Positions 1-59,626 of a stretch of DNA of 64,000 bases are shown in pieces. The stretch is from Cellulophaga omnivescoria (GTDB taxonomy: Bacteria; Bacteroidota; Bacteroidia; Flavobacteriales; Flavobacteriaceae), in NCBI RefSeq assembly GCF_001999725.1, contig NZ_MDDP01000010.1:248001-312000 (forward strand), written 5' to 3'. The translations under genes were made by a program, and so were the position numbers. A model generated the notes under the pieces. It did no database searches. It was not told the origin of the DNA and saw only the letters and a program-made list of their open reading frames with translations. Positions within the stretch are counted from its first letter, which is position 1; each line of letters starts with the position of its first letter.

Positions 1-149
1 TAGCAGTCATTAGTAATTGGCGGAGAGCTATCTCTAGGGCAAGGTAAATTACCATTGCCTTTAGAATTAAAAACGCTAAGCATTGGGTGCTCTGGTCTTG
101 GCAGTTCTAAATAATTTAAATAAGCAGATAGTGTTTTAAAATGTTGCAT
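1..149 (-). CDS. AraC-family transcriptional regulator, N-terminal fragment cut by window edge
   Basis: The minus strand is open from an ATG at 149-147 to the window edge, giving 49 codons that begin MQHFKTLSAYLNYLELPRPE. The pattern 'LPRPEHPMLSVF' resembles the N-terminus of flavobacterial AraC/XylS regulators whose sensing domain precedes a C-terminal helix-turn-helix; the DNA-binding part lies outside the window. The gene starts 9 bp after the stop of the SDR gene on the same strand, so the two are probably co-transcribed and the regulator may control the oxidoreductase. The family call rests on a short N-terminus only. Confidence 0.6.
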   Translation of the reverse strand, partial: MQHFKTLSAYLNYLELPRPEHPMLSVFNSKGNGNLPCPRDSSPPITNDC

Positions 150-158
150 ACTACAAAT

Positions 159-1109
159 TTATATATTCCATTTTACACCTGTTTCTTTTTCAGACAGTTG
201 CCATAATTTTTCTGCTACAACTTTATCTTTTGCGTGTGGTTCTAATTTATGAACGCCAACAGGACCAGTCCAAAAGTTTCTGCCTGTAGGACCATAAAAA
301 CCACTTTGGTCTAAATTTGGCTCTGTTGCACACATTAATTGCGGATAAGCACCTTTTTTTGCAGATTGAGTTAATGGAGATAGTTTCATCAAATTAAAGA
401 TAAATTTCATTATAAAACTACCACTGGTATTAATTAGGTTGGTTCTAGAAGAACCAGGATGGCAAGCAAATGCTTTAACATCTGTTTTGCCATTTATAGC
501 TAATTTATTTTGTAGCTCATAAATAGTCATAATTTGCGCAAGTTTACTTTGGCTAAAGGCATTGTTTGAAGTGTAATCTTTATGCCAGTTTAAATCATTA
601 AAGTTTATGGTTTTAATTCCCATATTATACCCCATACTACCAACGGTAACTATACGTCCTTTAGATTTTTGAATAAGAGGAAATAGCAAGGCTTGTAACG
701 TCCAGTTTCCAAAATAGTTTGTACCCATTTGACTCTCCCAACCATCTACAGTAAGCGTTAATTTTGGTACTTGTGCAATTGCCGCATTACAAATTAGCGC
801 ATCAATTTTAGTAACGCTGTTAAGCACCTTTTGGGCAGCTTTTTTTACAGAGGATTGTATAGATAGGTCTAAAGTTATATTTATAACATTGCTATGGCTA
901 CCAACTTCTTGCTTTAAAGTTTGTATAGTATCATCAGCCTTTTTGGGGTTTCTGTTAAGCATTACCACTTTAGCATTTTTAGACAGCAATATTTTAGCTG
1001 CTTCAAACCCGGTTCCGCTTGTAGTGCCTGTTATAACAAATGTTTTACCGCTTAAATCATCAATTCTTTCTGGTGTCCAACCATTTTTGCCAAATTTATT
1101 TGCTTTCAT
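159..1109 (-). CDS. Short-chain dehydrogenase/reductase (retinol dehydrogenase-like)
   Basis: This is a 316-residue Rossmann-fold protein of the SDR superfamily, expected to be a cytoplasmic NAD(P)-dependent oxidoreductase. The cofactor motif TGTTSGTG is at residues 27-34, the structural NAA motif follows beta-4 (CNAAIA), and a serine sits in VTVGS. The length and the QSKLAQ context match the classical/extended group that includes retinol dehydrogenase-like proteins. The catalytic YxxxK is FSQSK here: Phe185 (codon at 555-557) replaces the usual tyrosine and Lys189 is kept. Substrate is unknown, and altered or lost activity is possible. It precedes the AraC gene by 9 bp, and an inverted repeat lies upstream at 1176-1200. 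Confidence 0.85.
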   Translation of the reverse strand: MKANKFGKNGWTPERIDDLSGKTFVITGTTSGTGFEAAKILLSKNAKVVMLNRNPKKADDTIQTLKQEVGSHSNVINITLDLSIQSSVKKAAQKVLNSVTKIDALICNAAIAQVPKLTLTVDGWESQMGTNYFGNWTLQALLFPLIQKSKGRIVTVGSMGYNMGIKTINFNDLNWHKDYTSNNAFSQSKLAQIMTIYELQNKLAINGKTDVKAFACHPGSSRTNLINTSGSFIMKFIFNLMKLSPLTQSAKKGAYPQLMCATEPNLDQSGFYGPTGRNFWTGPVGVHKLEPHAKDKVVAEKLWQLSEKETGVKWNI

Positions 1110-1175
1110 TGCTGTCTGTTTTTTTATAGATTAAAATAACATTGCAAAGATGAGGTAGTAATAGGCTTAACCGCT

Positions 1176-1200
1176 TATACAACTTTTCAGATGTTGTATA
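1176..1200. promoter_or_regulatory. Perfect 8-bp inverted repeat upstream of the SDR gene
   Basis: TATACAAC at 1176-1183 and GTTGTATA at 1193-1200 are exact reverse complements separated by 9 bp. They lie 67-91 bp upstream of the SDR start codon, just beyond a weak minus-strand -7-like element (CATCTTTG, 1144-1151, one mismatch to TAnnTTTG). The position suits an operator, possibly for the co-transcribed AraC regulator. It could instead be a degenerate end of the adjoining repeat array. Function is inferred. Confidence 0.4.
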
Positions 1201-1206
1201 CTTTTT

Positions 1207-1320
1207 GGTTGTGTTAGGTTATTTAAATAGTTAAGCACCTAGTTTAGCAAATTAAAATTTTCAACACTACAAGTAATTGTAAGTAGGCTAAAACAAGCAA
1301 TAAATTATTTGCGGTGTTGG
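1207..1320 (-). repeat. Array-1 intergenic repeat R1 (short class)
   Basis: This aligns along its length with R4 (5673-5798). Both share GTTAAGCACCTA/GTTTAAGCACCTA, a stretch with GTAAGTAGGCT, and the terminal GCGGTGTTGG/ACGGTGTTGG. It lies directly downstream of the 187-residue gene and is the outermost repeat of array 1, next to the core SDR gene. Its outer (left) end lacks the clean CAACGG found in other copies, which suggests that the array edge has decayed. Confidence 0.75.
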
Positions 1321-1330
1321 TAAATCGTTT

Positions 1331-1894
1331 TTATTCATATTCAAACCAAACTGTTTTCGAATTTCGTTCAATCGCATAGTCAATAAATCTTTTGAAATTC
1401 CTTAAGTCTTGTCCAAAATTATTTCCAATATAGCCATCTCCTTTGTCTTTAGTGAAGTCCGAAAAATAGTATTTAGAGTTCATAGAGTCAAAATCAGTTT
1501 TTATTAATCTCTCGTATAGATTATCAATTTTTTCTAGTCTATTAATTAACTTCTCTACAAGAATTTCTATATGATTTATATTTCCATTTAAGTCTTGTTT
1601 TCTCTTTTCGAAATCAGACTTTAAACGTTCCTTTTCTTCTTCATTTTCCGCAAATTCAATCATATCTATTTCTTCCTCTTCGCTTGGGTATTCGGTCATT
1701 TTGTATAAATGAGATATATCGATATTTGTTATTTTTCCTATTTGGTCAAATTCAGGTTTGTGTTTAACTATGCCTGGTCTAGACATTAGATTGCAAAATT
1801 CTCTGCTTAAAGAATAGAGATTACTATTCTCAAAGTATTCAGCCGTGATTATTTCACTGTAATTATTTACTCTTAAATTAATGTCTAAACCCAT
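1331..1894 (-). CDS. Hypothetical protein, acidic, coiled-coil centre
   Basis: I do not recognise a characterised family. The 187-residue protein begins MGLDINLRV, a start seen in several uncharacterised bacterial and phage 'GLDI' proteins. It has an acidic, Glu/Lys-rich middle (about residues 65-105, PSEEEEID onward) likely to form a coiled coil, and a C-terminus with GDGYIGNNFGQDLRNF and a final WFEYE. There is no signal peptide or membrane segment, so it is probably cytoplasmic. It is a single-gene module between R1 and R2. Unlike most modules here, its two ends (GTTGGTAAATC and TGCACAAC) are not complementary beyond GTTG, so this unit may be a recombinant of two cassettes. Confidence 0.7.
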   Translation of the reverse strand: MGLDINLRVNNYSEIITAEYFENSNLYSLSREFCNLMSRPGIVKHKPEFDQIGKITNIDISHLYKMTEYPSEEEEIDMIEFAENEEEKERLKSDFEKRKQDLNGNINHIEILVEKLINRLEKIDNLYERLIKTDFDSMNSKYYFSDFTKDKGDGYIGNNFGQDLRNFKRFIDYAIERNSKTVWFEYE

Positions 1895-1910
1895 TTTTTT
1901 AAATTATGCA

Positions 1911-2016
1911 CAACGGACTTGTGTATGAAACGTAGCGTGTAAAAAAACACTAACTTTTCAGGTAAAAACAGAGCCGAATTTTTATGTTTTGTTTTAATTA
2001 TAGCCTATTTTAGCTG
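1911..2016 (-). repeat. Array-1 intergenic repeat R2 (truncated long class)
   Basis: It starts CAACGGACTTGTGTATGAAACG, nearly identical to the start of R3 (2532-2722), and shares the ACACTAACTTTTC and TTTTGTTTTAATT stretches. It lacks the central hairpin found in the longer copies, and its left end (TTTTAGCTGTAGTG) has lost the usual GTGTTG. It separates the 187-residue module from the DinB module. Confidence 0.75.
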
Positions 2017-2026
2017 TAGTGTTTTT

Positions 2027-2494
2027 TTAATCCCATATTTTTGGTCTATCAATTTTCATTGCTCTTAAATATGACAAAAATTGTCCTGCGTGAACTGATT
2101 CGTGATATCCAATCCGCAATAAATATTTTCCAAGTATTTTCTTTTCTCCGTTCCCTGGATGAATGATTTCAGTTTTGTTTAATTCCGTATCCGAAAATTG
2201 CCATACACTTTCTATAATTTTTTTTCTATAAGGTTCGGCAAATTCAAGTTCATCAGTAACGTTAATGAATGGTCGGTTTTCCCAAGGTGTTTTATAATTT
2301 GTCATATCTCCATGATTAATAATAATATTCCATCCATAATCAGCTTCCAAAACGTGTCTTATCATTTCCGACGCACTCATAGCTTTTTCGTCAGGTTTCC
2401 AATTATAATATTTCTCAGGTAGTCCATTCCAAAGTTTTATGCTTCTTCTTCTTATTTCTATTAAATTTAAAATTATAAGTTCAGATTGGGTCAT
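2027..2494 (-). CDS. DinB-family protein (putative metal-dependent enzyme)
   Basis: This 155-residue four-helix-bundle protein belongs to the DinB/YfiT group, whose members bind a divalent metal through three histidines and are thought to act as thiol-dependent transferases or related enzymes. Candidate ligands are the His in MIRHVLEADYGW near residue 47 and the two His in YHESVHAGQF near residues 131-135. Both are in the expected helices and the length is normal. It is a single-gene module of array 1: GCTGTAGTG (2013-2021) at its 3' end pairs 8 of 9 with CATTACAGC (2523-2531) upstream. The specific substrate is unknown. Confidence 0.8.
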   Translation of the reverse strand: MTQSELIILNLIEIRRRSIKLWNGLPEKYYNWKPDEKAMSASEMIRHVLEADYGWNIIINHGDMTNYKTPWENRPFINVTDELEFAEPYRKKIIESVWQFSDTELNKTEIIHPGNGEKKILGKYLLRIGYHESVHAGQFLSYLRAMKIDRPKIWD

Positions 2495-2531
2495 TTTCTT
2501 TGTTTTCGGGAATGTCGTTTTACATTACAGC

Positions 2532-2722
2532 CAACGGACTTGTATATGAAACGTAGTGTGTAAAAAGACACTAACTTTTCGGTTTAACCACAAGCCAAAT
2601 CTTTTGTATTTTGTTTTTAATTTATCATTTTTAAAAGCCAAATTAAAAATTTGGCGGTCTTTCTAAATATACACAAACCTTTCGGTTAAGCATTTATTAG
2701 CTATGTTTTATACACCGTGTTG
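2532..2722 (-). repeat. Array-1 intergenic repeat R3 (long class, hairpin-bearing)
   Basis: It starts CAACGGACTTGTATA and ends TATACACCGTGTTG, so the termini pair as CAAC/GTTG followed by TGTATA/TATACA. The centre holds a perfect hairpin, GCCAAATT-AAA-AATTTGGC at 2637-2655. R5 and R9 share the same overall body: an AAGCC start, a T-rich tract, the hairpin, then ACACAAACCTTTCGGTT-like sequence. It separates the DinB module from the five-gene module. Confidence 0.85.
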
Positions 2723-2729
2723 GCAGTAG

Positions 2730-3173
2730 TTATTTTTTTAATATCATATGTAGCGTTGGATAAGGTTTTCCGGAAGAATCCAATTCAGAGCGTTTAATAG
2801 TTTCAAATCCGCAATGTTTGTAAAATCCGACTGCTTGTTCATTTTGTTCGTTTACATCAACTTTTGTTACATTTAAGTGGTCAATTGAATAGTCTAATAG
2901 TGCTTTTCCGATTCTTTTCCCTCTATATTCAGGGTGAATAAATAACATTTCCAAGTTTTGGTCGGCTACTCCAAGAAAACCAACTATTTTTTTGTCATTA
3001 TTCCTTATGCATCTTAATTCGACTGCATCTAAATAAGTGTTTAAAATTAGTGGTCTAAAATATTCAATATCTTCTTCTTTTAAGAAGTGATGCGTTGCTC
3101 GAACTGAAGACTCCCAAACAGCTACGACTTCTTGGTATTCAGTTTTATTAATTGGTTCTATTTTTACTTTCAT
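2730..3173 (-). CDS. GNAT-family N-acetyltransferase
   Basis: This GCN5-related acetyltransferase has about 147 residues when started at the ATG at 3173-3171. I prefer this start because the longer frame runs into the preceding gene and the ATG overlaps that gene's stop codon in an ATGA arrangement, typical of translational coupling. The acetyl-CoA loop is visible as HPEYRGKRIGKALL, followed by the usual C-terminal VNEQNEQAVGFYKHCGFE. The substrate is unknown; family members modify amines of antibiotics, peptides or metabolites. It is the last gene of the five-gene cassette (AraC, VOC, methyltransferase, membrane protein, GNAT). Confidence 0.85.
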   Translation of the reverse strand: MKVKIEPINKTEYQEVVAVWESSVRATHHFLKEEDIEYFRPLILNTYLDAVELRCIRNNDKKIVGFLGVADQNLEMLFIHPEYRGKRIGKALLDYSIDHLNVTKVDVNEQNEQAVGFYKHCGFETIKRSELDSSGKPYPTLHMILKK

Positions 3174-3586
3174 TTTTTTTCTTTCAATCTGTTTTTTGAT
3201 AAAAAGACCAGACATCCAACAGTTAACCCAACAAGTATAAAACCAGTTGACATTAACCAAGGAATTTGGACTTTATTATCTGCGGATTGTAGCGTTAATT
3301 CTGGTAAAGCAATTAAGAATATTCCCTTAAGTAGAAACATACAACCTAATACAGATACTAAAATTTGAAGCATATTTTTCCACAAGAAATGATTAACAAG
3401 AATTGCCACTCCAATGAAAAAATGAACCATACCTGATAAATTAATTAAAACAGGGTCTGTTCCTTTGTGAGATATCATTTGTGAAAAAAACTCACTTGAA
3501 ACAGAAAATCCAATACCAGTAATAACCAAATAAACAGATAGTATTTTTCCTATTTTAGATGTCATTTCCATATTATTTACTTTCAT
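3170..3586 (-). CDS. Small four-helix integral membrane protein
   Basis: The protein has 138 residues and about four hydrophobic segments: near 14-30 (LSVYLVITGIGFSV), 48-65 (LINLSGMVHFFIGVAIL), 72-92 (MLQILVSVLGCMFLLKGIFLI) and 108-128 (LMSTGFILVGLTVGCLVFL). It ends in a basic tail (KNRLKEKK). I do not recognise a named family. Its stop codon overlaps the GNAT start (3170-3173), so the pair is probably translated together. It lies 132 bp after the methyltransferase in the five-gene module. Inner-membrane location is inferred from hydrophobicity. Confidence 0.75.
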   Translation of the reverse strand: MKVNNMEMTSKIGKILSVYLVITGIGFSVSSEFFSQMISHKGTDPVLINLSGMVHFFIGVAILVNHFLWKNMLQILVSVLGCMFLLKGIFLIALPELTLQSADNKVQIPWLMSTGFILVGLTVGCLVFLSKNRLKEKK

Positions 3587-3718
3587 TTTAATTAGTAGTA
3601 ATAGTGAAGTATCTGAAAAGTGTCTTATTACAATGTTTTACCATTTTACGGTTTTCATAGACTATAAATTTATATATAGATTTATAGTATTACAACTTAA
3701 TCACTACTTTTATATGTG

Positions 3719-4378
3719 CTATAATAGATGAATAGCTTTTTGCATTATGAAATATTGAGATATCAAATTATGAGTTTTTTCATTAAATTCAATTTCTGGT
3801 TCAATTTTCTCAATTCTTTCGATAATTTTAAAATTAGTTTGTTCAATTAAAGACTCAAAATCCTCATTTCTATACTCCTTAAATCCGTATTGGGTAAAAT
3901 CGAGTGTTTGCCCACTTATAAAAGGTCTAAATGAAACTATCAATATTCCCTTTTTCTTTAAGACTCTATAAACTTCTTCTAATGCCTTTATTGGATTTTT
4001 CCAAAAGTAAATGGTGTTAACTGTACATATTTTATCAAATGTTTCATCCCACACAGGTATTTTCTCAATGTCTGCAACAAATATATCTACGTATCCTGTT
4101 TCAAATAGAGAACTATTAATCCTCTTTGCTTCAGTTATCATAGTTTCAGAAATATCAATTCCAGTATAGGATACACGAGAAGTATTGTCTAGAATATCCT
4201 TAATGAATTTACCGTTTCCAATTCCAATTTCTAGAACAGCATTATTATCGTTTATTTTTAACAATTCATAAGTTGTTTTACTTATAAATTCATTCATTGT
4301 ATTCATACCTAATGCAATATCAATTCCAAATTGTCCTGATGGATTGGCTAACTGTTTTGAAACTTTTTCAAAATTCAT
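3719..4378 (-). CDS. Class I SAM-dependent methyltransferase (UbiE-like group)
   Basis: The 219-residue cytoplasmic protein shows the Rossmann methyltransferase motifs in order. Motif I is VLEIGIGNGKFIKDI near residues 48-62, the acidic loop is GIDISETMITEAKR, motif IV is FDKICTVNTIYFWKNP, and the post-motif segment is YRVLKKKGILIVSFRP. The pattern fits small-molecule methyltransferases of the UbiE/Methyltransf_11 type. The acceptor is unknown. It starts 8 bp after the VOC gene and is part of the five-gene cassette, where an AraC regulator heads a set of small-molecule modifying enzymes. A role in handling a toxic or signalling compound is inference. Confidence 0.85.
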   Translation of the reverse strand: MNFEKVSKQLANPSGQFGIDIALGMNTMNEFISKTTYELLKINDNNAVLEIGIGNGKFIKDILDNTSRVSYTGIDISETMITEAKRINSSLFETGYVDIFVADIEKIPVWDETFDKICTVNTIYFWKNPIKALEEVYRVLKKKGILIVSFRPFISGQTLDFTQYGFKEYRNEDFESLIEQTNFKIIERIEKIEPEIEFNEKTHNLISQYFIMQKAIHLL

Positions 4379-4386
4379 TTAGCAAT

Positions 4387-4851
4387 TTATTTTGGCGTTT
4401 CGGAAAAAGTTAAAATAAAACCATTCAAGTCCATTATTGCGAACTCATTGGTGTCGTAAAAAGTTCTGTTCATAGGTTTTACGATATTAACTTCTTTAGG
4501 TAGTTGATTGAAATATTTATTTATGTCTTTTACTCTAATGTAAAAAGTTAATGCACCTCCAATTTTTAAAGATTCCATTTCTTTATACTCGGCTTTTAAT
4601 GATTTTTCCTCTTGGAACATCATTCCTACATTATCTAACATAACATAACACCATTCATATTCACCTGATTCGGGATTAGTATCTATTAATGTAAAACCTA
4701 ACTTTGTTACGTAATAATCTAAAGTTGCATTTACGTCTTTAACCATTATGTTTGGTGTAAGAGATTCTAATTTTGCCATATTATTATTTTTAGTTTGAGA
4801 ATAAGATTTAGTAGACCAACTAATGAGAACTACTATTAAAAAATATTTCAT
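4387..4851 (-). CDS. Exported VOC-family (glyoxalase/bleomycin-resistance fold) protein
   Basis: Starting at the ATG at 4851-4849 gives a 154-residue protein with a plausible signal peptide (MKYFLIVVLISWSTKSYSQ) followed by a VOC domain beginning LTPNIMVKDVNATLDYYVTKLGF. A start about 24 codons later (MAKLES) would give a cytoplasmic version. A longer upstream frame also exists, but it leaves almost no space after the AraC stop. VOC proteins bind small ligands, often through a metal site. The conserved paired beta-alpha-beta-beta-beta units are recognisable (GFILTFSETPK at the end). It sits between the AraC regulator and the methyltransferase in the five-gene module. Confidence 0.75.
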   Translation of the reverse strand: MKYFLIVVLISWSTKSYSQTKNNNMAKLESLTPNIMVKDVNATLDYYVTKLGFTLIDTNPESGEYEWCYVMLDNVGMMFQEEKSLKAEYKEMESLKIGGALTFYIRVKDINKYFNQLPKEVNIVKPMNRTFYDTNEFAIMDLNGFILTFSETPK

Positions 4852-4913
4852 GATTGTTTTAAGGCAAATGTAAAAGTTAAGAAGGTGCCATGTTTTGTAA
4901 AAAAACGACAAGA

Positions 4914-5660
4914 TTATAATTCTGAAGGATTTACTCCCGACATTTTTTTTATTTCTTTGAAGAGGTGAGAATGGTCAAAGTAACCGTTATCAAATGCTGT
5001 GTTTAATAAACTTAAGTTTGGATTTTTTGTAATACAATCTTTGACTTGATTAAAACGTATTATCGAATGATATTCTTTCATGGTAACTCCGATTGTTGTT
5101 TTAAAACGCCTTTCTAATTGTCTTAAGCTTATACAATGATTTTTAGCTATTTTGTTCAAGTCTAACTCTCTATAGTTTAGTTGGATTGATTGACAAACGG
5201 AGTGTTCCAATTTGTTTGGTGTTAAATCTGACCAATTTATTTCAGCTAATAAAAATTTATTGATTATTTGGACTTTTTCCCAATGATGCTTTTTTTCAAC
5301 TAATTCATCTAAAAACGAATTGTTAAGTTTAAAGAAAAAGTTTGATGCATTAATGGTAGTGTTTTTTATTTCTGAAAGAGGTATATTCGAGATAGCATTA
5401 AATTGTCCTGTTTTAAATCTTATACCTAGTGTTTCTGAATTTTTTCTTGATATTACTTTTTTAAACTTTGTCATCATTCCTGAAATTCTAATTTCATTTT
5501 CTGAGTTCAAATGCTTTTGCTTGTTAAGGTCAAAAACAATATCTACATATCCATCAGGCAAGATTCTAGACTCTATTTCTTTTCCATTGTTTGTTGCTAT
5601 CCAAATGGTATCAACAATTGAATTCAAATTTTCAGATGGTATGTATTTTTTATAGTTCAT
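4914..5660 (-). CDS. AraC-family transcriptional regulator
   Basis: The 248-residue protein uses the ATG at 5660-5658. The open frame extends five codons further to a TTG inside repeat R4, which is unlikely to be the start. The N-terminal half is a sensor domain (KKYIPSENLNSIVDTIW, RILPDGYVDIVFDL) of the kind fused to AraC HTH domains in Bacteroidota. The C-terminal HTH pair is visible as LDLNKIAKNHCISLRQLERRFKTTIG and LSLLNTAFDNGYFDHSHLFKEIKKMSGVNP. It is the first gene of the five-gene cassette and likely regulates it. TACTGCCAAC (5667-5676), just upstream, is the exact complement of GTTGGCAGTA (2719-2728) at the far end of the module. Confidence 0.85.
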   Translation of the reverse strand: MNYKKYIPSENLNSIVDTIWIATNNGKEIESRILPDGYVDIVFDLNKQKHLNSENEIRISGMMTKFKKVISRKNSETLGIRFKTGQFNAISNIPLSEIKNTTINASNFFFKLNNSFLDELVEKKHHWEKVQIINKFLLAEINWSDLTPNKLEHSVCQSIQLNYRELDLNKIAKNHCISLRQLERRFKTTIGVTMKEYHSIIRFNQVKDCITKNPNLSLLNTAFDNGYFDHSHLFKEIKKMSGVNPSEL

Positions 5661-5672
5661 TCTAATTACTGC

Positions 5673-5798
5673 CAACGGTCTTGTGTATGGTTAGTTACGT
5701 TGTTTAAGCACCTAATTTAGCAAATAAAACATAGTTAGAAAATCCGCGATGATTTTCGTAAGTAGGCTTGCACTAGCAATTAATTTTATACGGTGTTG
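5673..5798 (-). repeat. Array-1 intergenic repeat R4 (short class)
   Basis: It starts CAACGGTCTTGTGTATGG and ends TTATACGGTGTTG. The ends pair as CAAC/GTTG, then GTATG/TATAC. Its body matches R1: GTTTAAGCACCTAATTTAGCAAAT, then GTAAGTAGGCT, then AGCAATTAATTTTATACGGTGTTGG. It separates the five-gene module from the 237-residue gene, and its left end encodes the last residues of that gene. Confidence 0.85.
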
Positions 5799-6499
5799 GC
5801 AACTGGCTTTTTATTCAGTCTGTTTATTATTTCTTCGTCTTGGAATGTTTTAATTCCGTTTTTATAATTGTTCAGAAAATACTCGTCATAACCAGTTTCA
5901 TTTATTCTTTCAGCTATAATTTTTTCGTTTAACAAAGATTTCGGATTGGGAACAGTCAATGTCGCTATCAGAAAATCAAATTCGTTCATTTCATCAGTCC
6001 ACTCTATTTTTAAAAATCCGTTTTTGTCAATTATTTCAGGTTCTTTTTCAATAATGTAATCGGATGGATTGAAATTATAATCTGCATATATTTTTGTCCA
6101 ACGTTCTTTTATAATTTCAAGATTTCTGGTTTTCTCAATCTTTGGATTTATTAAAAGTCCAACAGTTCCCCAATTTTTATTCAAAGATGGTCCTGATTCT
6201 TTCCATAGACCTTCAGCTCCAGCCATAGCAAAAGCTTGACTTTCTATATTCCGTGCGTTTTTCAGCACTTCCTTAAATCTCAAAATATACGCATTTCCAA
6301 ATTCCGTTTTTGGGTGATTTGACAAAATCATTGTATGTGTATTTCTCCGAGAACTTGATTCTCTTCCGTAACGAATTCGAGCTTTTATTGGAATTAGATT
6401 TTCTATAGATTCCAGATTGAGTTTTCTCCATTTAATTCGTTTAGGTTCGTTGTCCCAAAGTAATGAACCTATGATTATTGCTCCTCCTTTAAATTCCAT
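5786..6499 (-). CDS. Conserved hypothetical protein, 237 residues
   Basis: I do not recognise a characterised family. The N-terminus GGAIIIGSLLWD followed by IKARIRYGRESSSRRNTHTMIL is reminiscent of uncharacterised bacterial proteins with a gamma-glutamylcyclotransferase-like opening strand. The middle contains NIESQAFAMAGAEGLW and WGTVGLLINP, and the C-terminal half FDFLIATLTVPNP. No signal peptide or membrane segment is seen. It forms a single-gene module: GTTGGCAAC (5795-5803) at its 3' end is the exact complement of GTTGCCAAC (6519-6527) upstream. The last residues (VANTV) are encoded by the cassette end and the repeat. Confidence 0.75.
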   Translation of the reverse strand: MEFKGGAIIIGSLLWDNEPKRIKWRKLNLESIENLIPIKARIRYGRESSSRRNTHTMILSNHPKTEFGNAYILRFKEVLKNARNIESQAFAMAGAEGLWKESGPSLNKNWGTVGLLINPKIEKTRNLEIIKERWTKIYADYNFNPSDYIIEKEPEIIDKNGFLKIEWTDEMNEFDFLIATLTVPNPKSLLNEKIIAERINETGYDEYFLNNYKNGIKTFQDEEIINRLNKKPVANTV

Positions 6500-6523
6500 C
6501 TATTTCGTTTTTCAGCTTGTTGC

Positions 6524-6713
6524 CAACGTCTCGGCTATGATTAGTACGGGAATAAATAAGTGATTAATTTCCGATTAAGCACTTAGCCAAAACTTTTTAT
6601 TTTGTTTTATCTTTTCATTTTAAAAGCCAAATCAAAAGATTTGGTGAACTTTATAAAAGTACACTAAACTTTGGGTTAAACACCAAAACCCGTATTAATT
6701 ATAGCCATTGTTG
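6524..6713 (-). repeat. Array-1 intergenic repeat R5 (long class, hairpin-bearing)
   Basis: It starts CAACGTCTCGGCTATGATTAG and ends AATTATAGCCATTGTTG. The terminal pairs are CAAC/GTTG and an inner GGCTATGATT/AATTATAGCC, nine of ten complementary. The central hairpin is CCAAATC-AAAA-GATTTGG (6627-6644, with a further G-T pair). It separates the 237-residue module from the DndC-like module and encodes the last residues of the DndC-like protein. Confidence 0.85.
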
Positions 6714-7754
6714 TAAGGCGTTTTCTGAATAATTATCATTTATTTTATCAATTTCCCACAATTCATAGATTCTTTTTATTTCCTCTTGACTAATTAAATT
6801 CAAACCACTTATTTTCTCTGTGACTAATAACTTTTCTAAAATTATTTTTCTTCCTTCTAATGTTATAGGTCCTAAACCTTTAACTCCATTTCTTCTGAAA
6901 GAACATCTGTATTTTACATTATCTCTAAATTCTGAAATCCAATTCCTGAAGTCATATAATTCTTTTAATTCTGAGTATCCATTTTCTATCATATTACCCA
7001 TAGACTTATCTTTTCGAACTACCGTACAAGTCCAACAGCCAAACCTTGAGTTTCCACAAGAAGAGCCTTTAGATTCTCTATAAGTAGGACATTCAGATTC
7101 AGCATCTTGATATATTGAACGAATCTTTTTAAAGTCAATACTTTTAGGCAATTCGTTATACCGTAAAGTCAACCACACATCTTCTAATGCGTGATTAATA
7201 ATTGGACTAAAAATTATATTCTTTGATGAACCACTTTGTTTTAAATAATATTGATTGTTTGTTTTATGTTTAGATATTGTTCTATCTCTTTGTTCACTTT
7301 CAGAGCTTCTTACTCCTAATAAAATAACTGCTTTTTTATCTTTATCTATAAGCTGTTTAACAGGATTAATTCTTAATTTATCTGTACACCAACGAAAAAT
7401 ATTAGTAGGTGTAGGGTAACCTCTTCCAATTACCTTTACAAAAAACCTATCTTCCAATTTTGGTTTTACAATCTTCAAAATCAATGGTATCTTTAATTCT
7501 TCACATTCTTTTTTAAGTTTATCAAAAGTATCATAAACATAAGTTGTTACAATAGGGTTTTCTACACCGGTGTCACAATACAATACTGTGACGGGTTTAT
7601 GATAAAAATCTATTTGTTTTAAAGCATTAAAAACTAATTTTAACATTGAAGAAGAATCTTTTCCCCCACTGTAGCCAATATACCAAGGTATATAGTTTTT
7701 AACATATTCTTTTTTGATGACTTTAATAACTTGTTGGTCAATTTTACTATTCAT
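6699..7754 (-). CDS. DndC-like phosphoadenosine phosphosulfate reductase-family protein
   Basis: The 351-residue protein (ATG at 7754-7752; a TTG lies one codon earlier) has the N-type ATP pyrophosphatase P-loop SGGKDS near residues 29-34, CDTGVENPIV, GRGYPTPTNIFRWCTDKLRINP and LGVRSSES. It carries four cysteines near residues 222, 233, 240 and 243 (ECP, SCGNSRFGCWTC) followed by DKSM. This is the layout of DndC, the sulfur-transfer component of DNA phosphorothioation, where the cysteines hold a 4Fe-4S cluster. DndB, DndD and DndE homologues are absent here. It overlaps the four-helix membrane gene by 8 bp, suggesting a two-gene unit. The chemistry is inferred from the family; the substrate is unknown. 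Confidence 0.85.
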   Translation of the reverse strand: MNSKIDQQVIKVIKKEYVKNYIPWYIGYSGGKDSSSMLKLVFNALKQIDFYHKPVTVLYCDTGVENPIVTTYVYDTFDKLKKECEELKIPLILKIVKPKLEDRFFVKVIGRGYPTPTNIFRWCTDKLRINPVKQLIDKDKKAVILLGVRSSESEQRDRTISKHKTNNQYYLKQSGSSKNIIFSPIINHALEDVWLTLRYNELPKSIDFKKIRSIYQDAESECPTYRESKGSSCGNSRFGCWTCTVVRKDKSMGNMIENGYSELKELYDFRNWISEFRDNVKYRCSFRRNGVKGLGPITLEGRKIILEKLLVTEKISGLNLISQEEIKRIYELWEIDKINDNYSENALQQWL

Positions 7755-8409
7755 CAAGTTTAGTTAAAGTTTCAGTTATTTTGGTGTTTACTAAATTTAT
7801 ATGATGAGTTTCTATAAATTCAATTTGTTCATTTGATAATTTAATGTGTTTTAGAAAAGCGAGTGCGTGCAAACCAAGGCTAATTAAACCGACCATAATA
7901 GTTGTTAAGCCAAACATTAATAAGTTGTTTTTGATGCTTCCCTCAAACATTGTCATAGAAATAAGAATTAATACAGATATAAATATTGAAATTATAGAAA
8001 GGTCAGCAGTTGAAGTCCATATGATTCCATTAAAATAAATATTTTTACTTTTTTGCTTAAGAGATTCATCATTATCTACCACGTGATAAAAGATACTTTT
8101 TAATCTGTTTTTTTTAAAAAGAAATTGTCGTTGTATATCAGTTAGAGGTTGAGTGAACAGTCTACAAATATGATTCTTTATATTCAAGTCAATTTTTTTA
8201 TGAGAATAATTTGTGACAAGATATCTGACTTCAAACATTTCATATAAAACACCAATAATAACAGCTATTACAGTAGGAATTGTATATTCTTTAAATTCAA
8301 AACCTGAGAATTCTTTTTTTGTAATTATTGAGATGTAAATTAAGCCATAAATTACTATTATAATTCCTGGGATTAAGAGTCTTAATTTTTTTAATGTTTC
8401 TAAGTTCAT
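7747..8409 (-). CDS. Four-helix membrane protein paired with the DndC-like gene
   Basis: The protein has 220 residues and four hydrophobic segments in two pairs: about 9-29 (LRLLIPGIIIVIYGLIYISII), 43-60, 134-155 (DLSIISIFISVLILISMTMF) and 162-186 (NLLMFGLTTIMVGLISLGLHALAFL). Between them is a charged cytosolic loop of about 70 residues, and a soluble C-terminal tail follows. I see no named domain. The topology recalls membrane effectors of phage-defence modules, including S-4TM-type proteins, but I cannot confirm homology. It is the first gene after the boundary element of array 1, and its last codons overlap the start of the DndC-like gene. Confidence 0.75.
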   Translation of the reverse strand: MNLETLKKLRLLIPGIIIVIYGLIYISIITKKEFSGFEFKEYTIPTVIAVIIGVLYEMFEVRYLVTNYSHKKIDLNIKNHICRLFTQPLTDIQRQFLFKKNRLKSIFYHVVDNDESLKQKSKNIYFNGIIWTSTADLSIISIFISVLILISMTMFEGSIKNNLLMFGLTTIMVGLISLGLHALAFLKHIKLSNEQIEFIETHHINLVNTKITETLTKLDE

Positions 8410-8426
8410 TTATTTTTTGTCTTAAT

Positions 8427-8536
8427 GCCTTACAACTACACATAAACGCAATACATTGCGTTTATTCCACCCATATGGCTGTGTAAACGCACATTTTGCA
8501 TTTTTGGTTGTTATTTTTCTCACAATTTATAATTAT
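8427..8536 (-). repeat. Array-1 boundary element A (shared with 59525-59626)
   Basis: It contains GCCTTACAAC (8427-8436), the exact complement of GTTGTAAGGC at 6710-6719 at the far end of the same module. Next comes a perfect palindrome AAACGCAAT-AC-ATTGCGTTT (8444-8463), then TATGGCTGTGTAAAC, then TTTTTCTCACAATTTATAA. The palindrome and the following stretch align closely with the element at 59542-59621. It lies between the core ssb gene and the first cassette gene, and all array-1 genes are transcribed away from it. Possible roles are an attI-like insertion end, an outermost repeat copy, or a shared promoter region. The role is inferred. Confidence 0.75.
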
Positions 8537-8712
8537 TTTCTGTATTATAATTACGCAAATGTGTAATTAGCCCAATTTTATGTGTAAAATGCACTAAAAT
8601 AAACCCTTTTTGTATTTTTAGTTTAAGGTTGTTTTTACCGTTTTTAAACGACTACAAATAGTTACAACCGAAAGTAAGCACTTTGTAACCGCATATAGTT
8701 TGGTTGACGTTT

Positions 8713-8741
8713 TAGGTTTGCAGTGCCATTGCAATGGTGCT
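8713..8741 (+). promoter_or_regulatory. ssb promoter -7 element with adjoining 20-bp palindrome
   Basis: TAGGTTTG at 8713-8720 matches the Bacteroidota -7 consensus TAnnTTTG and lies 60 bp upstream of the ssb start. I see no well-spaced TTG at -33. Immediately downstream, 8722-8741 is a 20-bp near-perfect palindrome (AGTGCCATT-GC-AATGGTGCT, with two G/T mismatches in the arms) that would overlap the transcription start. It could be an operator for a damage- or growth-responsive repressor, or a 5' RNA hairpin. Confidence 0.5.
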
Positions 8742-8780
8742 TTGGTAGTAATAACTGTTAAACATTAAAACACACAAATT

Positions 8781-9116
8781 ATGAACGCACTTAAAAACAG
8801 AGTACAGTTAATTGGGAACTTAGGTAACGATCCAGAAATTATAAACTTAGATGGCGGTAAAAAGCTGGCACGCTTTTCTATAGCTACTAATGAGACGTAC
8901 AAAAACGCTGCTGGCGAAAAAATAACAGATACCCAATGGCACAATGTTGTTGCTTGGGGTAAAACTGCAGAAATTGTAGAGAACTTTTTAACCAAAGGAA
9001 AAGAAATTGCTTTAGAGGGCAAATTGGTTAACAGGTCTTACGAGACCAAAGAAGGAGAAAAAAGATATAGTACAGAGGTTAATTGTAACGAGATTTTAAT
9101 GCTTGGTAAAGGATAA
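8781..9116 (+). CDS. ssb: Single-stranded DNA-binding protein, short form
   Basis: This 111-residue OB-fold protein of the SSB family starts MNALKNRVQLIGNLGNDPEI, with LARFSIATNETYKN, TQWHNVVAWGKTAEIVENFLTKGKEIALEGKL and a YSTEV strand. It binds single-stranded DNA in replication, repair or recombination. It ends right after the OB fold (EILMLGKG) and lacks the glycine-rich linker and acidic tail that recruit partners in housekeeping SSB, so it is probably a second, specialised SSB. It is monocistronic, with a strong terminator 29 bp after the stop. It is the core gene directly next to the boundary element of array 1. Confidence 0.92.
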   Translation: MNALKNRVQLIGNLGNDPEIINLDGGKKLARFSIATNETYKNAAGEKITDTQWHNVVAWGKTAEIVENFLTKGKEIALEGKLVNRSYETKEGEKRYSTEVNCNEILMLGKG

Positions 9117-57754: not shown

Positions 57755-57834
57755 CAACGGTTTCGTATAAGAATAGTTACGGGTTTACTATCTTTGATTA
57801 GACACATAATCGTAATTATTTTTATACTTTGTTG
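57755..57834 (-). repeat. Array-2 intergenic repeat R7
   Basis: It starts CAACGGTTTCGTATAA and ends TTTATACTTTGTTG: CAAC pairs with GTTG, then GTATAA with TTATAC. At 80 bp it is shorter than the array-1 copies but shows the same paired-end layout. It separates the 65-residue membrane gene from the NTF2-like gene. Confidence 0.8.
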
Positions 57835-57849
57835 TACGCAGGCTTTCTT

Positions 57850-58221
57850 TTATAATTGCTCCACTAGTTTTCTAGCAGTAACAGTATCATATATAATTTT
57901 TAGTTTACTAATCTTGTTTTGATTATCAAATTCAATAATGTCTACTACATCAAATTCCACTTTTTGATTATTCTTTAAAGTCCATTTATAGGTGAAATAA
58001 AGAGCTAAATCATTTGAGTCATTATCTTCAAAAATTCCTTTTAAATAAAGTTCAGAATTTGAAGTATCGTTATTCAATTCACGATAAAATTCATCTGCTT
58101 TTTTTATTCCGTATAGTGGCGAGTCAACCATTCCATTTTGATTGAATAAAGCGATTACTTGTTCAATATTTCCATTTTCAAGGTGAGTAATATATTGCCT
58201 TGCGATTTCTTTTTTATTCAT
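57850..58221 (-). CDS. NTF2-like (SnoaL) fold protein
   Basis: The 123-residue cytoplasmic protein has the NTF2/SnoaL pattern: an N-terminal helix pair (KKEIARQYITHLENGNIEQVIALFNQNGMVDSPLYG), then strands including LALYFTYKWTLKNNQKVEFDVVDIIEFDNQNKISKLKIIYD. Such proteins form cone-shaped pockets and may be isomerases, hydrolases or binding proteins. It forms one cassette: GTTGTACGCAGGCT (57831-57844) pairs 12 of 14 with AGCTTGCGTATAAC (58259-58272). Confidence 0.8.
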   Translation of the reverse strand: MNKKEIARQYITHLENGNIEQVIALFNQNGMVDSPLYGIKKADEFYRELNNDTSNSELYLKGIFEDNDSNDLALYFTYKWTLKNNQKVEFDVVDIIEFDNQNKISKLKIIYDTVTARKLVEQL

Positions 58222-58258
58222 TATTTCATCAATTTTTAAATTTCTGAGTATGTTTCTC

Positions 58259-58313
58259 AGCTTGCGTATAACGTTTCGTATAATGTTAGTTGCGGTTATA
58301 CAATGTTGTGGTG
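58259..58313 (-). repeat. Array-2 intergenic repeat R8 (minimal copy) with cassette ends
   Basis: The core AACGTTTCGTATAA...TTATACAATGTT (58270-58307) is only about 38 bp and keeps little besides the paired ends (AAC/GTT and GTATAA/TTATAC) around a short loop. The flanking AGCTTGCGTAT belongs to the NTF2 cassette and GTTGTGGTG to the lipoprotein cassette. It shows the smallest form of the element. Confidence 0.75.
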
Positions 58314-58319
58314 TCGTTT

Positions 58320-58913
58320 TTATTCACTCTCGATCTCATTTACTGGCGGTGGTGGCAAATACCGAATTGATTCCCAAAATGCAAAATTTAGTTCCAAATC
58401 GGTTTCGAGTCTATCGTATTCTTGAGTTATATTCGTTATAAATTTTTCAATTCCATCTACATTTCCCTTTCGTTCGGATTCTAAAATAATCAGATAACTT
58501 TCAGGTTTGTCCGAATTTCGATAATATGAAAAATCCTCAGTCAATTTTTTGCTTAATGAGTCAGGTAATATTTCTATAATAGTTTGCCATTCGTATGGTT
58601 TTCCTTTTCGAAAAGTAACATAGTGTTTTCCATCTGGGTCAAAAATTATGGGCTCACAAAGTTCAGTCGGATATATATTGCGAATCAGATTTTTTTCTTT
58701 AACAACTAATTTTGGAATGCTATCATTGCAGGTTATTTCACGAATTCTGTCAATTAGGTTTCCATAATTTTTGAATTCCGATAGTTCAAGAGATAGATTT
58801 AAACTTCCACTTTCGTTTTTTGAAAATCCATAATTCTTTATTTCAGTTTCTTGCATTTCACAACTTGCCAAAAGCAGTGTAATAATCAAATATTTGGCAA
58901 ATTTTAAATTCAT
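58320..58913 (-). CDS. Hypothetical lipoprotein, 197 residues
   Basis: The precursor has a lipoprotein signal (MNLKFAKYLIITLLLASC; lipobox LASC). The mature part contains LNLSLELSEFKNYGNLIDRIREITCND, EPIIFDPDGKHYVTFRKGKPYEWQTIIEIL and a C-terminal WESIRYLPPPPVNEIESE. I recognise no domain. It is a single-gene cassette of array 2: GTTGTGGTG (58305-58313) is the exact complement of CACCACAAC (58934-58942). Confidence 0.75.
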   Translation of the reverse strand: MNLKFAKYLIITLLLASCEMQETEIKNYGFSKNESGSLNLSLELSEFKNYGNLIDRIREITCNDSIPKLVVKEKNLIRNIYPTELCEPIIFDPDGKHYVTFRKGKPYEWQTIIEILPDSLSKKLTEDFSYYRNSDKPESYLIILESERKGNVDGIEKFITNITQEYDRLETDLELNFAFWESIRYLPPPPVNEIESE

Positions 58914-58933
58914 TTCAAGGGTTTGTTTAAATG

Positions 58934-59137
58934 CACCACAACGGCTTCGGCTATGGCAAGTAGGGCAGGCAAGGAAACTTTTCGTTTCCGTTTATGCACG
59001 AAGCTAAAGCTTATTGTTTTGCTTTTTCTTTTTTTCTTCCAAAGCTAAATCCATAAGATTTAGCGACTTTATAGATATATACAGACCTTTCGGTTTTGCC
59101 CTAAAGTCCGCATTACGTTTAGGCTTTGTTACCAAAC
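58934..59137 (-). repeat. Array-2 intergenic repeat R9 (long class, hairpin-bearing)
   Basis: It starts CACCACAACGGCTTCGGCTATGG and contains the central hairpin GCTAAATC-CATAA-GATTTAGC (59044-59064), followed by ATATATACAGACCTTTCGGTTTTGCC, matching R3 and R5. Compared with R3 (GCCAAAT/ATTTGGC), both arms have changed so that pairing is kept. Its left end (TAGGCTTTGTTAC) is more degenerate. It separates the lipoprotein cassette from the 59-residue membrane gene. Confidence 0.8.
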
Positions 59138-59316
59138 GTTTTTTGCGTTCTTTTTGTACGTTTCCATTTGGCAAAACCTCCATCTTTATTTTCTTTACAC
59201 AATTAAGGAAAGTCCATTAGCGTAACGATTGCATTTGAGTAAAGTCCATTTACGCATTTTTATAAAGCCTCGGTCGTAATTGTTTTATATAGAATAGATG
59301 GTTTTTATTGAGATTC

Positions 59317-59496
59317 CTATTCAGATTTTTTTAATTTAAAATAATAAAAAAAAGAAAAAACAGCAAAGGAGAAAAACATTAAATTTTGTCCCCATTTGAT
59401 TTCAAGTGAGTCATCAAATAGATAGCCAGAGATAGAGTTAAGAAAGGCTATTCCAGTTATTATTCCGCAAATTAAAAATATTGTTTTCTTGTTCAT
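59317..59496 (-). CDS. Small two-helix membrane protein, 59 residues
   Basis: The minus strand encodes 59 residues from ATG 59496-59494 to TAG 59319-59317, starting MNKKTIFLICGIITGIAFLN and ending YYFKLKKSE. There are two hydrophobic helices (IFLICGIITGIAFLNSI and LMFFSFAVFSFFYYF) separated by a short acidic loop (DDSLEIKWGQ). It is the cassette nearest the boundary element of array 2: TACCAAAC (59130-59137) is the complement of GTTTGGTA (59525-59532). No family is recognised. Confidence 0.6.
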   Translation of the reverse strand: MNKKTIFLICGIITGIAFLNSISGYLFDDSLEIKWGQNLMFFSFAVFSFFYYFKLKKSE

Positions 59497-59524
59497 AAAT
59501 ACTTTTTTAGTTGATTATATAAAT

Positions 59525-59626
59525 GTTTGGTACTAGTTAGTAAACGCAATTAATTGCGTTTATTCCGCCAATATGGCTGTGTAAACACATGTTTTGTGTA
59601 TTTTTCTTACAATTTATAAATGTTTA
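59525..59626 (-). repeat. Array-2 boundary element B (shared with 8427-8536)
   Basis: It contains the perfect palindrome AAACGCAAT-TA-ATTGCGTTT (59542-59561), then TATTCCGCCAATATGGCTGTGTAAAC, then TATTTTTCTTACAATTTATAA. This matches element A with only a few substitutions and a short gap. As with A, it lies between a core gene (RidA) and the first gene of the array, with array genes transcribed away from it. Confidence 0.75.

Follow-up and report, generated by a model that had tools for sequence, protein, structure and literature searches.

A 64,000-nt stretch of the Cellulophaga omnivescoria genome (assembly GCF_001999725.1, contig NZ_MDDP01000010.1, positions 248,001-312,000, forward strand; "the window" below is this whole stretch) carries on its minus strand a tandem array of gene modules separated by related repeats (1207-8436), with an attI-like hairpin at its head (8444-8463). 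We consider it likely, at roughly four chances in five, that this array is a platform for gene cassettes that works in the manner of an integron and is served by a dedicated tyrosine recombinase. The case is built on what is observed here of array anatomy, matching module ends, covariation in an inner stem (the L stem), GTT borders, attI-like sites, co-occurrence of sites and integrase, and mobility among related genomes. An initial annotation of the window had read the region as a mobile cassette system using folded single-stranded sites, possibly undescribed in flavobacteria; this integron-like interpretation is supported by our sequence comparisons, with the refinements that the candidate integrase is not IntI proper and that its relatives reach well beyond the flavobacteria.

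The initial annotation had noted that the two ends of a module complement each other, and its coordinates and sequence are correct: reverse complementarity is exact for 2719-2728/5667-5676, 5795-5803/6519-6527 and 6710-6719/8427-8436, and 2013-2021/2523-2531 (cassette 4) agree at 8 of 9 positions, the odd base being at a conserved position that has a C/A mismatch in 204 of 229 modules elsewhere. The comparison with shuffled modules that it had proposed was run with sites located by their inner motifs and L-stem pairing, the arms being ignored at that step and the ends compared afterwards. In the C. omnivescoria genome the ends match exactly over 5 nt in 8 of 12 modules, versus 2 of 132 comparisons between modules and a maximum of 5 in 2000 permutations; in relatives they match in 132 of 170 modules, versus 414 of 28,730 between modules and a 2000-permutation maximum of 10 (a between-module background of 1.4-1.5%). 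The two arms of a single in-array site match in 0/23 cases in this genome and 4/195 in relatives, so end matching is a property of the module and not of the repeat, as expected for modules that were once circular. Repeats this long, alike and folded might instead be RNA-level or regulatory elements, with the genes shuffled by homologous recombination between them, but such recombination would give neither module-specific ends nor the mismatch within sites just described, and borders at a triplet would not be expected from it; we find this explanation barely credible.

Read in the direction of the genes, a site opens with a left arm and the motif [C/T]AAC-A-NN. An L box (for example GTATAT, GTGTAT or GGCTAT) and its paired counterpart then enclose a variable top, and the site is completed by a spacer, GTT[G/A] and a right arm. 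Most of 203 sites fall into a short class of 115-132 nt (170 sites) or a long class of 186-194 nt (23 sites), and 10 have other lengths. The L stem covaries: 94.3% of 954 cells are paired versus 71.6% after shuffling and 24.5-45.0% in slid controls, and 188 cells have changed on both sides versus 48 in the shuffled set. The 229 modules examined come from 18 of 20 loci (L081 and L084 had no chain of three) and were picked by an exact match at the first 9 outer positions, the independent positions there being outer positions 9-13 and the inner stem. The C/A mismatch mentioned above is at outer stem position 10, C on the left and A on the right, and the inner positions of 202 sites have on the top strand 493 A.C, 38 G.T, 2519 Watson-Crick and 384 other combinations. 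On the bottom strand each top-strand A.C position becomes a G.T pair. Energies computed for 162 distinct short-class sites, modelled as they would be in a circular cassette, are predicted to be lower for the bottom strand in 161 of them (mean -29.3 versus -24.8 kcal/mol); the predicted mean for bottom strands of sites as they stand in arrays is -22.5 kcal/mol, and 10 canonical sites from three loci have a smaller mean strand difference of -2.05. By a simple pairing rule 107 of 189 distinct sites have no bulge, 58 have a one-base bulge (56 of them in the right arm) and 24 are of other kinds; 104 of the 107 bulge-free sites carry at least two A.C positions. Integron attC sites have two or three extrahelical bases on the R''-L'' arm. 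Together the structure and the strand asymmetry suggest that the sites are used as folded single strands. The initial annotation had also remarked that the classical consensus is not fully present, and indeed GTTRRRY fits 8/229 modules and RYYYAAC 8/229. Rfam gave no match at the gathering threshold in seven loci, and in window positions 1-9000 a single chance match (E 0.21, 25.6 bits versus gathering 70).

Scanning the window for tyrosine recombinases gave no match, as the initial annotation had reported, and a suitable enzyme is encoded elsewhere in the genome: a 297-residue tyrosine recombinase at G000:C2:216-1109, outside the window and about 255 kb from the array on the same contig. It scores 200 bits with the integron-integrase model TIGR02249 (cut-off 265; four relatives score 174-207 bits) and 210 bits with the XerA/integron model NF040815 (cut-off 220), which two longer relatives pass. 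Six residues are invariant in 14 aligned integrases, and from their pattern we take them to be the active-site residues. In a 65-row tree (excluding L131, L142, L143 and L144, and also L106, L115, L128 and L145, which had no usable frame) these integrases form a clade separate from IntI (group supports 100/96 and 100/99); we claim no sister order among the flavobacterial, IntI and IS91 groups. The insertion specific to IntI (the I2 region; 33 and 11 IntI-only alignment columns) is missing from them. A 375-residue type (L154) has an N-terminal alpha/beta part, residues 1-90, that the 297-residue type lacks and that has no Pfam match in the long proteins scanned; a second structural look took in model residues 94-369. 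Judged from these alignments, the gene-collecting system of the window appears to use an enzyme from a branch other than that of IntI, missing a part thought essential.

Is this protein perhaps a recombinase of the chromosome-dimer Xer system, or one associated with IS91, that happens to adjoin arrays? Its NF040815 score and the two relatives above that cut-off point in this direction, as do relatives of ~34-37% identity that adjoin IS91 transposases in proteobacterial plasmids. However, XerD (332.5 bits, cut-off 329.6) and a XerC-like protein (286.6 bits, below the cut-off of 335) are encoded separately in the genome, and the 297-residue integrase is neither of these. The list of open reading frames (ORFs), read on one side of the integrase gene, contained no recognisable IS91-type gene (the other side is a contig end), and the IS91-linked recombinases form a group of their own (support 100/99). 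We regard this origin as very unlikely. The genome also encodes a 411-residue recombinase with weak scores.

Behind both copies of the integrase gene in C. omnivescoria lie a hairpin, GTTG and an apparent cassette start, and in relatives, too, the integrase stop is followed by a hairpin and then by GTTG or GTTA. By a strict rule, a hairpin and GTTR follow the stop at 24 of the 30 family loci and at 7 of the 25 from named genomes, versus 3 of 55 shuffled and 4 of 55 upstream controls; the same integrase-attI arrangement is widespread in flavobacteria and their relatives. Module chains built de novo from the integrase-side sites contain, among the chains listed, 24 modules at L077, 22 at L083, 21 at L089, 16 at L079 and 13 at L090, and shuffled controls of family-locus chains give 0-2. 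Named carriers are Seonamhaeicola aphaedonensis (L155, 7 modules), Winogradskyella ursingii (L154, 4) and Flavobacteriaceae bacterium S0862 (L149, 4), whose chains begin 42-65 bases after the stop and exceed the shuffled 0-3. Four canonical-IntI loci (L195, L211, L214 and L220; 400-506 bits with TIGR02249) have chains of 3-6 modules that start 5' of the gene.

The hairpin is present at 11 places in the C. omnivescoria genome, 7 of them exact and 4 differing at one base, against none in a reversed control, and the inspected copies away from the integrase share a leader of ~130 bases. The genus was represented by 18 genomes, of which five have the leader in multiple copies, exactly those with the 297-residue integrase type (Fisher 1e-4), namely C. 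omnivescoria and four genomes at 82-83% integrase identity; the other 13 have relatives at 41-54% only and, beyond a weak 50-base match in G492, no leader. One attI copy, beside ssb, can be compared in five congeners: pairwise identity of the leaders is 77-91% as far as the GTT, and in the 1200 bases behind it the longest match is 40 bases, at chance level (the best E-value is 5e-4, over 21 bases). One orthologous attI is followed, that is, by five first cassettes without alignable similarity, which point to exchange of cassettes by the window's platform since the species split and are the strongest sign of it. Within single arrays, cassettes that are 99.5-100% identical stand at different places. 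In many such pairs at L083 the identical stretch opens at the first GTT and closes at the GTT that follows the site (offsets of 0 to -3 at the start and +2 to +6 at the end); other identical pairs extend further, through similar neighbouring sites or several cassettes copied together. The GTT borders and the five unrelated first cassettes behind a conserved leader bear out the expectation in the initial annotation that genes and repeats move as units. Inverted repeats at module ends could also belong to small transposons, mobilised in trans by a transposase, whose terminal inverted repeats are specific to each module; this is highly improbable, given that the ends differ between modules, that insertions lie behind attI or beside another site, and that borders fall at one triplet. 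The search for enzymes that had been suggested, which found the tyrosine recombinase with its attI-like site, gave no match to the Y1 (REP/IS200-type) transposase family PF01797 in this genome, other transposase families not having been searched for. As a separate observation, a cassette of 403 bp with a 71-nt site is repeated several times at L083, some copies being 99.8-100% identical.

How widely are the integrase and its sites distributed? Integrase relatives (E 1e-40) are found in 125 of 199 genomes of the family, and sites in 175 of 199 at E 1e-4 with R1, a covariance model whose 80 training sites all come from other genomes (site counts per genome were capped at 17). At class level integrase relatives occur in 160 of 295 genomes (E 1e-50). 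G019, G059, G071, G097 and others hold 15 to at least 17 sites with no integrase match at E 1e-40, for which another recombinase, a weak relative or loss may account. Canonical IntI is above its cut-off in 84 of 296 genomes of the phylum, with one in the same class as C. omnivescoria and none in its family among the genomes listed. This frequency, and the same kind of end matching in the canonical arrays L195, L211, L214 and L220, would suit the view that these are ordinary integron cassettes moved by an occasionally acquired canonical IntI, the I2-less recombinase being unrelated. On the other hand, 86 of the 89 genomes with an IntI match are phylum-level kin only, two are of the same class (one above the cut-off) and one is of the same family (141 bits, below it); attI-like sites and array starts lie directly behind the I2-less integrase in many genomes, and the sites themselves are non-canonical by the box counts given above. 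Movement by canonical IntI is therefore quite improbable, and canonical IntI was rejected as the engine.

Sites and integrase co-occur in the family (both in 123 genomes, sites only in 52, integrase only in 2, neither in 22; Fisher 5e-9; an integrase in 123 of 175 genomes with sites versus 2 of 24 without), in a table that was made by comparing two lists, with four site-free genomes named by elimination, and that is biased upward because the training sites of R1 came from genomes of this very draw that carry an integrase. This bias is one of several points that count against a dedicated cassette platform. In 52 of the 175 site-bearing family genomes there is no integrase match at E 1e-40; another enzyme may be at work in these, or the threshold may have missed relatives. 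Some chains are short (0 modules at L075, 1 at L092 and L093, 2 at L081, 3 at L076, L078 and L080), and forward chains at most named-genome loci have 0-2 modules, inside the shuffled range of 0-3. In C. omnivescoria the contig ends 215 bases after the intact integrase gene, so no full array is visible beside it, and the second copy, on C51, is broken; in G490 the integrase copy is broken and the leader is still multi-copy. Canonical integrons likewise show extended end matching, which is by itself no distinguishing mark. The insertion missing here is held necessary for IntI activity (PMC2727003, PMC8138268; here and below, statements on papers with PMC numbers refer to the parts of them that were available). 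Finally, the support is comparative throughout.

The dedicated platform that we favour would work as follows. The recombinase at G000:C2:216-1109 would recombine circular cassettes, each a gene (sometimes several) with a site at its 3' side, into attI-like sites at the GTT triplet, and would serve the window's orphan attI in trans. The cassette site would be used as a folded bottom strand, with an outer stem made of the cassette's own two ends, the inner L stem and the variable top, and the asymmetric positions, A.C on the top strand and G.T on the bottom, would mark the strand. Since the arms of a site in the array come from two different cassettes, its fold is predicted to be poorer than that of the circular form, which would favour insertion over excision. 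A bolder and tentative idea, to which we give a little under even odds, is that this is a second integron lineage across the Bacteroidia that did not arise from IntI, in which hairpins are read without the I2 helix, the strand is chosen by A.C/G.T positions and not by bulges, the module-specific arms serve as an insertion ratchet by making the free circle a better substrate than the integrated site, and a single integrase serves many dispersed attI platforms in trans.

The features of the window are collected in Table 1. The initial annotation had listed repeats at five places between 1207 and 6713 and extended the region to 8536. R1 finds three of these repeats, 2532-2722, 5673-5798 and 6524-6713, with identical borders; the copies at 1207-1320 and 1911-2016 are weaker and look decayed, being similar to the other repeats by blastn and absent among R1 matches at E 0.01, and 8437-8536 is not a repeat and belongs to the attI-like hairpin and leader. 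A second, smaller array with an attI-like hairpin at its head occupies 57755-59561. With the five window repeats as queries, blastn against 13 retrieved stretches of the same genome marks some forty related places, spread over nine contigs. Sites in this genome are often a few kb from contig ends (contigs C6, C13, C39, C46, C47, C50 and others); the 51-contig assembly probably breaks at arrays, and more cassettes probably exist.

Table 1. Cassettes, attC-like sites and attI-like sites in the window
Feature	Position	Strand	Details
attI-like site and leader	8433..8570	minus	hairpin 8444-8463, AAACGCAATGTATTGCGTTT (minus strand); GTT 8434-8436; conserved leader to ~8570
Cassette 1	6524..8436	minus	genes 7747-8409 (product hydrophobic by inspection) and 6699-7757 (DndC-like, 305.9 bits with DndC); own site 6524-6713; arms GTTGTAAGGC / GCCTTACAAC
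attC-like site of cassette 1, long class	6524..6713	minus	190 nt; R1 49.6 bits
Cassette 2	5673..6527	minus	gene 5786-6499 (no match in Pfam scan); own site 5673-5798; arms GTTGGCAAC / GTTGCCAAC
attC-like site of cassette 2, short class	5673..5798	minus	126 nt; R1 86.6 bits
Cassette 3, large	2532..5676	minus	five genes: AraC-type regulator 4914-5675, glyoxalase-like 4387-4911 and methyltransferase 3719-4378 (all Pfam), 3170-3586 (no known identity), GNAT acetyltransferase ~2730-3170 (Pfam); own site 2532-2722; arms GTTGGCAGTA / TACTGCCAAC
attC-like site of cassette 3, long class	2532..2722	minus	191 nt; R1 40.5 bits
Cassette 4	1911..2535	minus	DinB-like gene 2027-2494 (Pfam DinB_2); decayed own site 1911-2016
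Cassette 5	1207..1914	minus	gene 1331-1894 (no Pfam match); decayed terminal site 1207-1320; no complementarity between ends
attI-like hairpin, second array	59542..59561	minus	hairpin pattern and shared leader
attC-like site, second array	58939..59131	minus	R1 25.5 bits, E 0.004
attC-like site, second array	58269..58308	minus	40 nt only; R1 28.1 bits, E 0.001; terminal site of a cassette with arms GTTGTGGTG / CACCACAAC
attC-like site, second array	57755..57834	minus	80 nt; R1 64.4 bits

Of 203 modules considered, 184 have an ORF of at least 60 residues, and in 175 of these the longest one lies on the sense strand; the median unit is 737 bp long. The cargo is mixed, since the matches of 100 cassette proteins, taken from 177 candidates, spread over 62 Pfam families, none with more than 3 members; that of the window is DndC-like, DinB, GNAT, methyltransferase, glyoxalase-like and AraC-type. 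Defence as the purpose of the cargo was rejected, there being few PADLOC matches among the 100 proteins (16 families, E 1e-10).

Relatives of the integrase are also present on plasmids, in 1144 records with the 297-residue query (E 1e-15) and 267 with the 375-residue query (E 1e-40), all at less than 60% identity; 50 of the 267 are from Acinetobacter. Carriage by phages was rejected, none of 68 phage records having 80% query coverage. On an Acinetobacter baumannii plasmid (NZ_CP104447.1; L137, ~3232-3422) a recombinase of the clade that lacks the N-terminal part (50.6% identity over 81% of the query) precedes a hairpin and GTTA, with tet(X3) coming right after them. On a Klebsiella michiganensis plasmid (NZ_CP084417.1; L143) a partial integrase relative (43.7%) lies ~110 bases ahead of blaVEB-3.

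In integron surveys the extra domain serves to recognise IntI, and the boxes and the fold serve to recognise attC; a system that misses both marks may be overlooked as a complete integron. If our reading is true, a gene-capture platform would be added for a large part of the Bacteroidia. Searches of open-licence full text at PMC, which took in neither preprints nor the majority of subscription papers, listed no paper that by its title or the opening of its abstract reports such a system in Flavobacteriaceae or Bacteroidia, and an earlier description may exist elsewhere; Bacteroidota (PMC8618304) and the Bacteroidetes/Chlorobi group (PMC2426708) are listed among integron carriers. How the I2 domain and attC arose together has been termed a chicken-and-egg paradox (PMC4792948), for which an I2-less integrase serving folded sites would be a living test case. 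The order of relative, hairpin and GTTA before tet(X3) on the one Acinetobacter plasmid also offers a possible reading of the known nearness of xerD to tet(X), where xerD is in the opposite orientation and its role was left open (PMC7473080).

By structural and comparative tests the system behaves as an integron: it has a tandem array in one orientation, mostly of single genes with a site behind each, paired L boxes with AAC/GTT cores, matching R' and R'' arms, and attI beside the integrase. Two features that define integrons, an IntI with its insertion and the box consensus, were not found in it, and for that reason we describe it as integron-like and do not file it under IntI integrons. It resembles chromosomal (sedentary) integrons with IntI (IntI4/VchIntIA, PDB 2a3v) in its sense-strand genes, 3' palindromic sites, AAC/GTT cores and insertion at attI, and canonical cassettes also have ends that are complementary beyond the box, over 9-11 nt (PMC2727003). 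It differs from IntI integrons in an integrase of a separate group without the IntI-specific insertion, in the divergent boxes, and in its two site-length classes, A.C/G.T positions, 107/189 sites without a bulge under the simple pairing rule, and orphan attI copies. Here attI and the array are 3' of the integrase gene, whereas in the four canonical loci checked the array is 5'; in archaeal integrons attI is reported immediately downstream of intI (PMC9668308). Compared with XerA-type and archaeal Xer-like recombinases (PDB 5hxy, 4a8e), the 375-residue type has ~90 extra N-terminal residues, and arrays are attached to the integrases here. Insertion-free members of an integron-like subgroup of tyrosine recombinases have been noticed before, the insertion being not fully conserved, and the available part of that paper describes no attI, arrays or attC-like sites for them (PMC8138268). 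The window array is like a CALIN (an attC cluster without IntI) in having no neighbouring integrase, and unlike it in its attI-like head and non-canonical sites. Phages of the CTX type, the last system to be compared, presumably have no cassette array. They have no recombinase of their own, and their hijacking of Xer resembles the present system in that a folded site is served by recombinases without an I2-like domain (PMC4792948).

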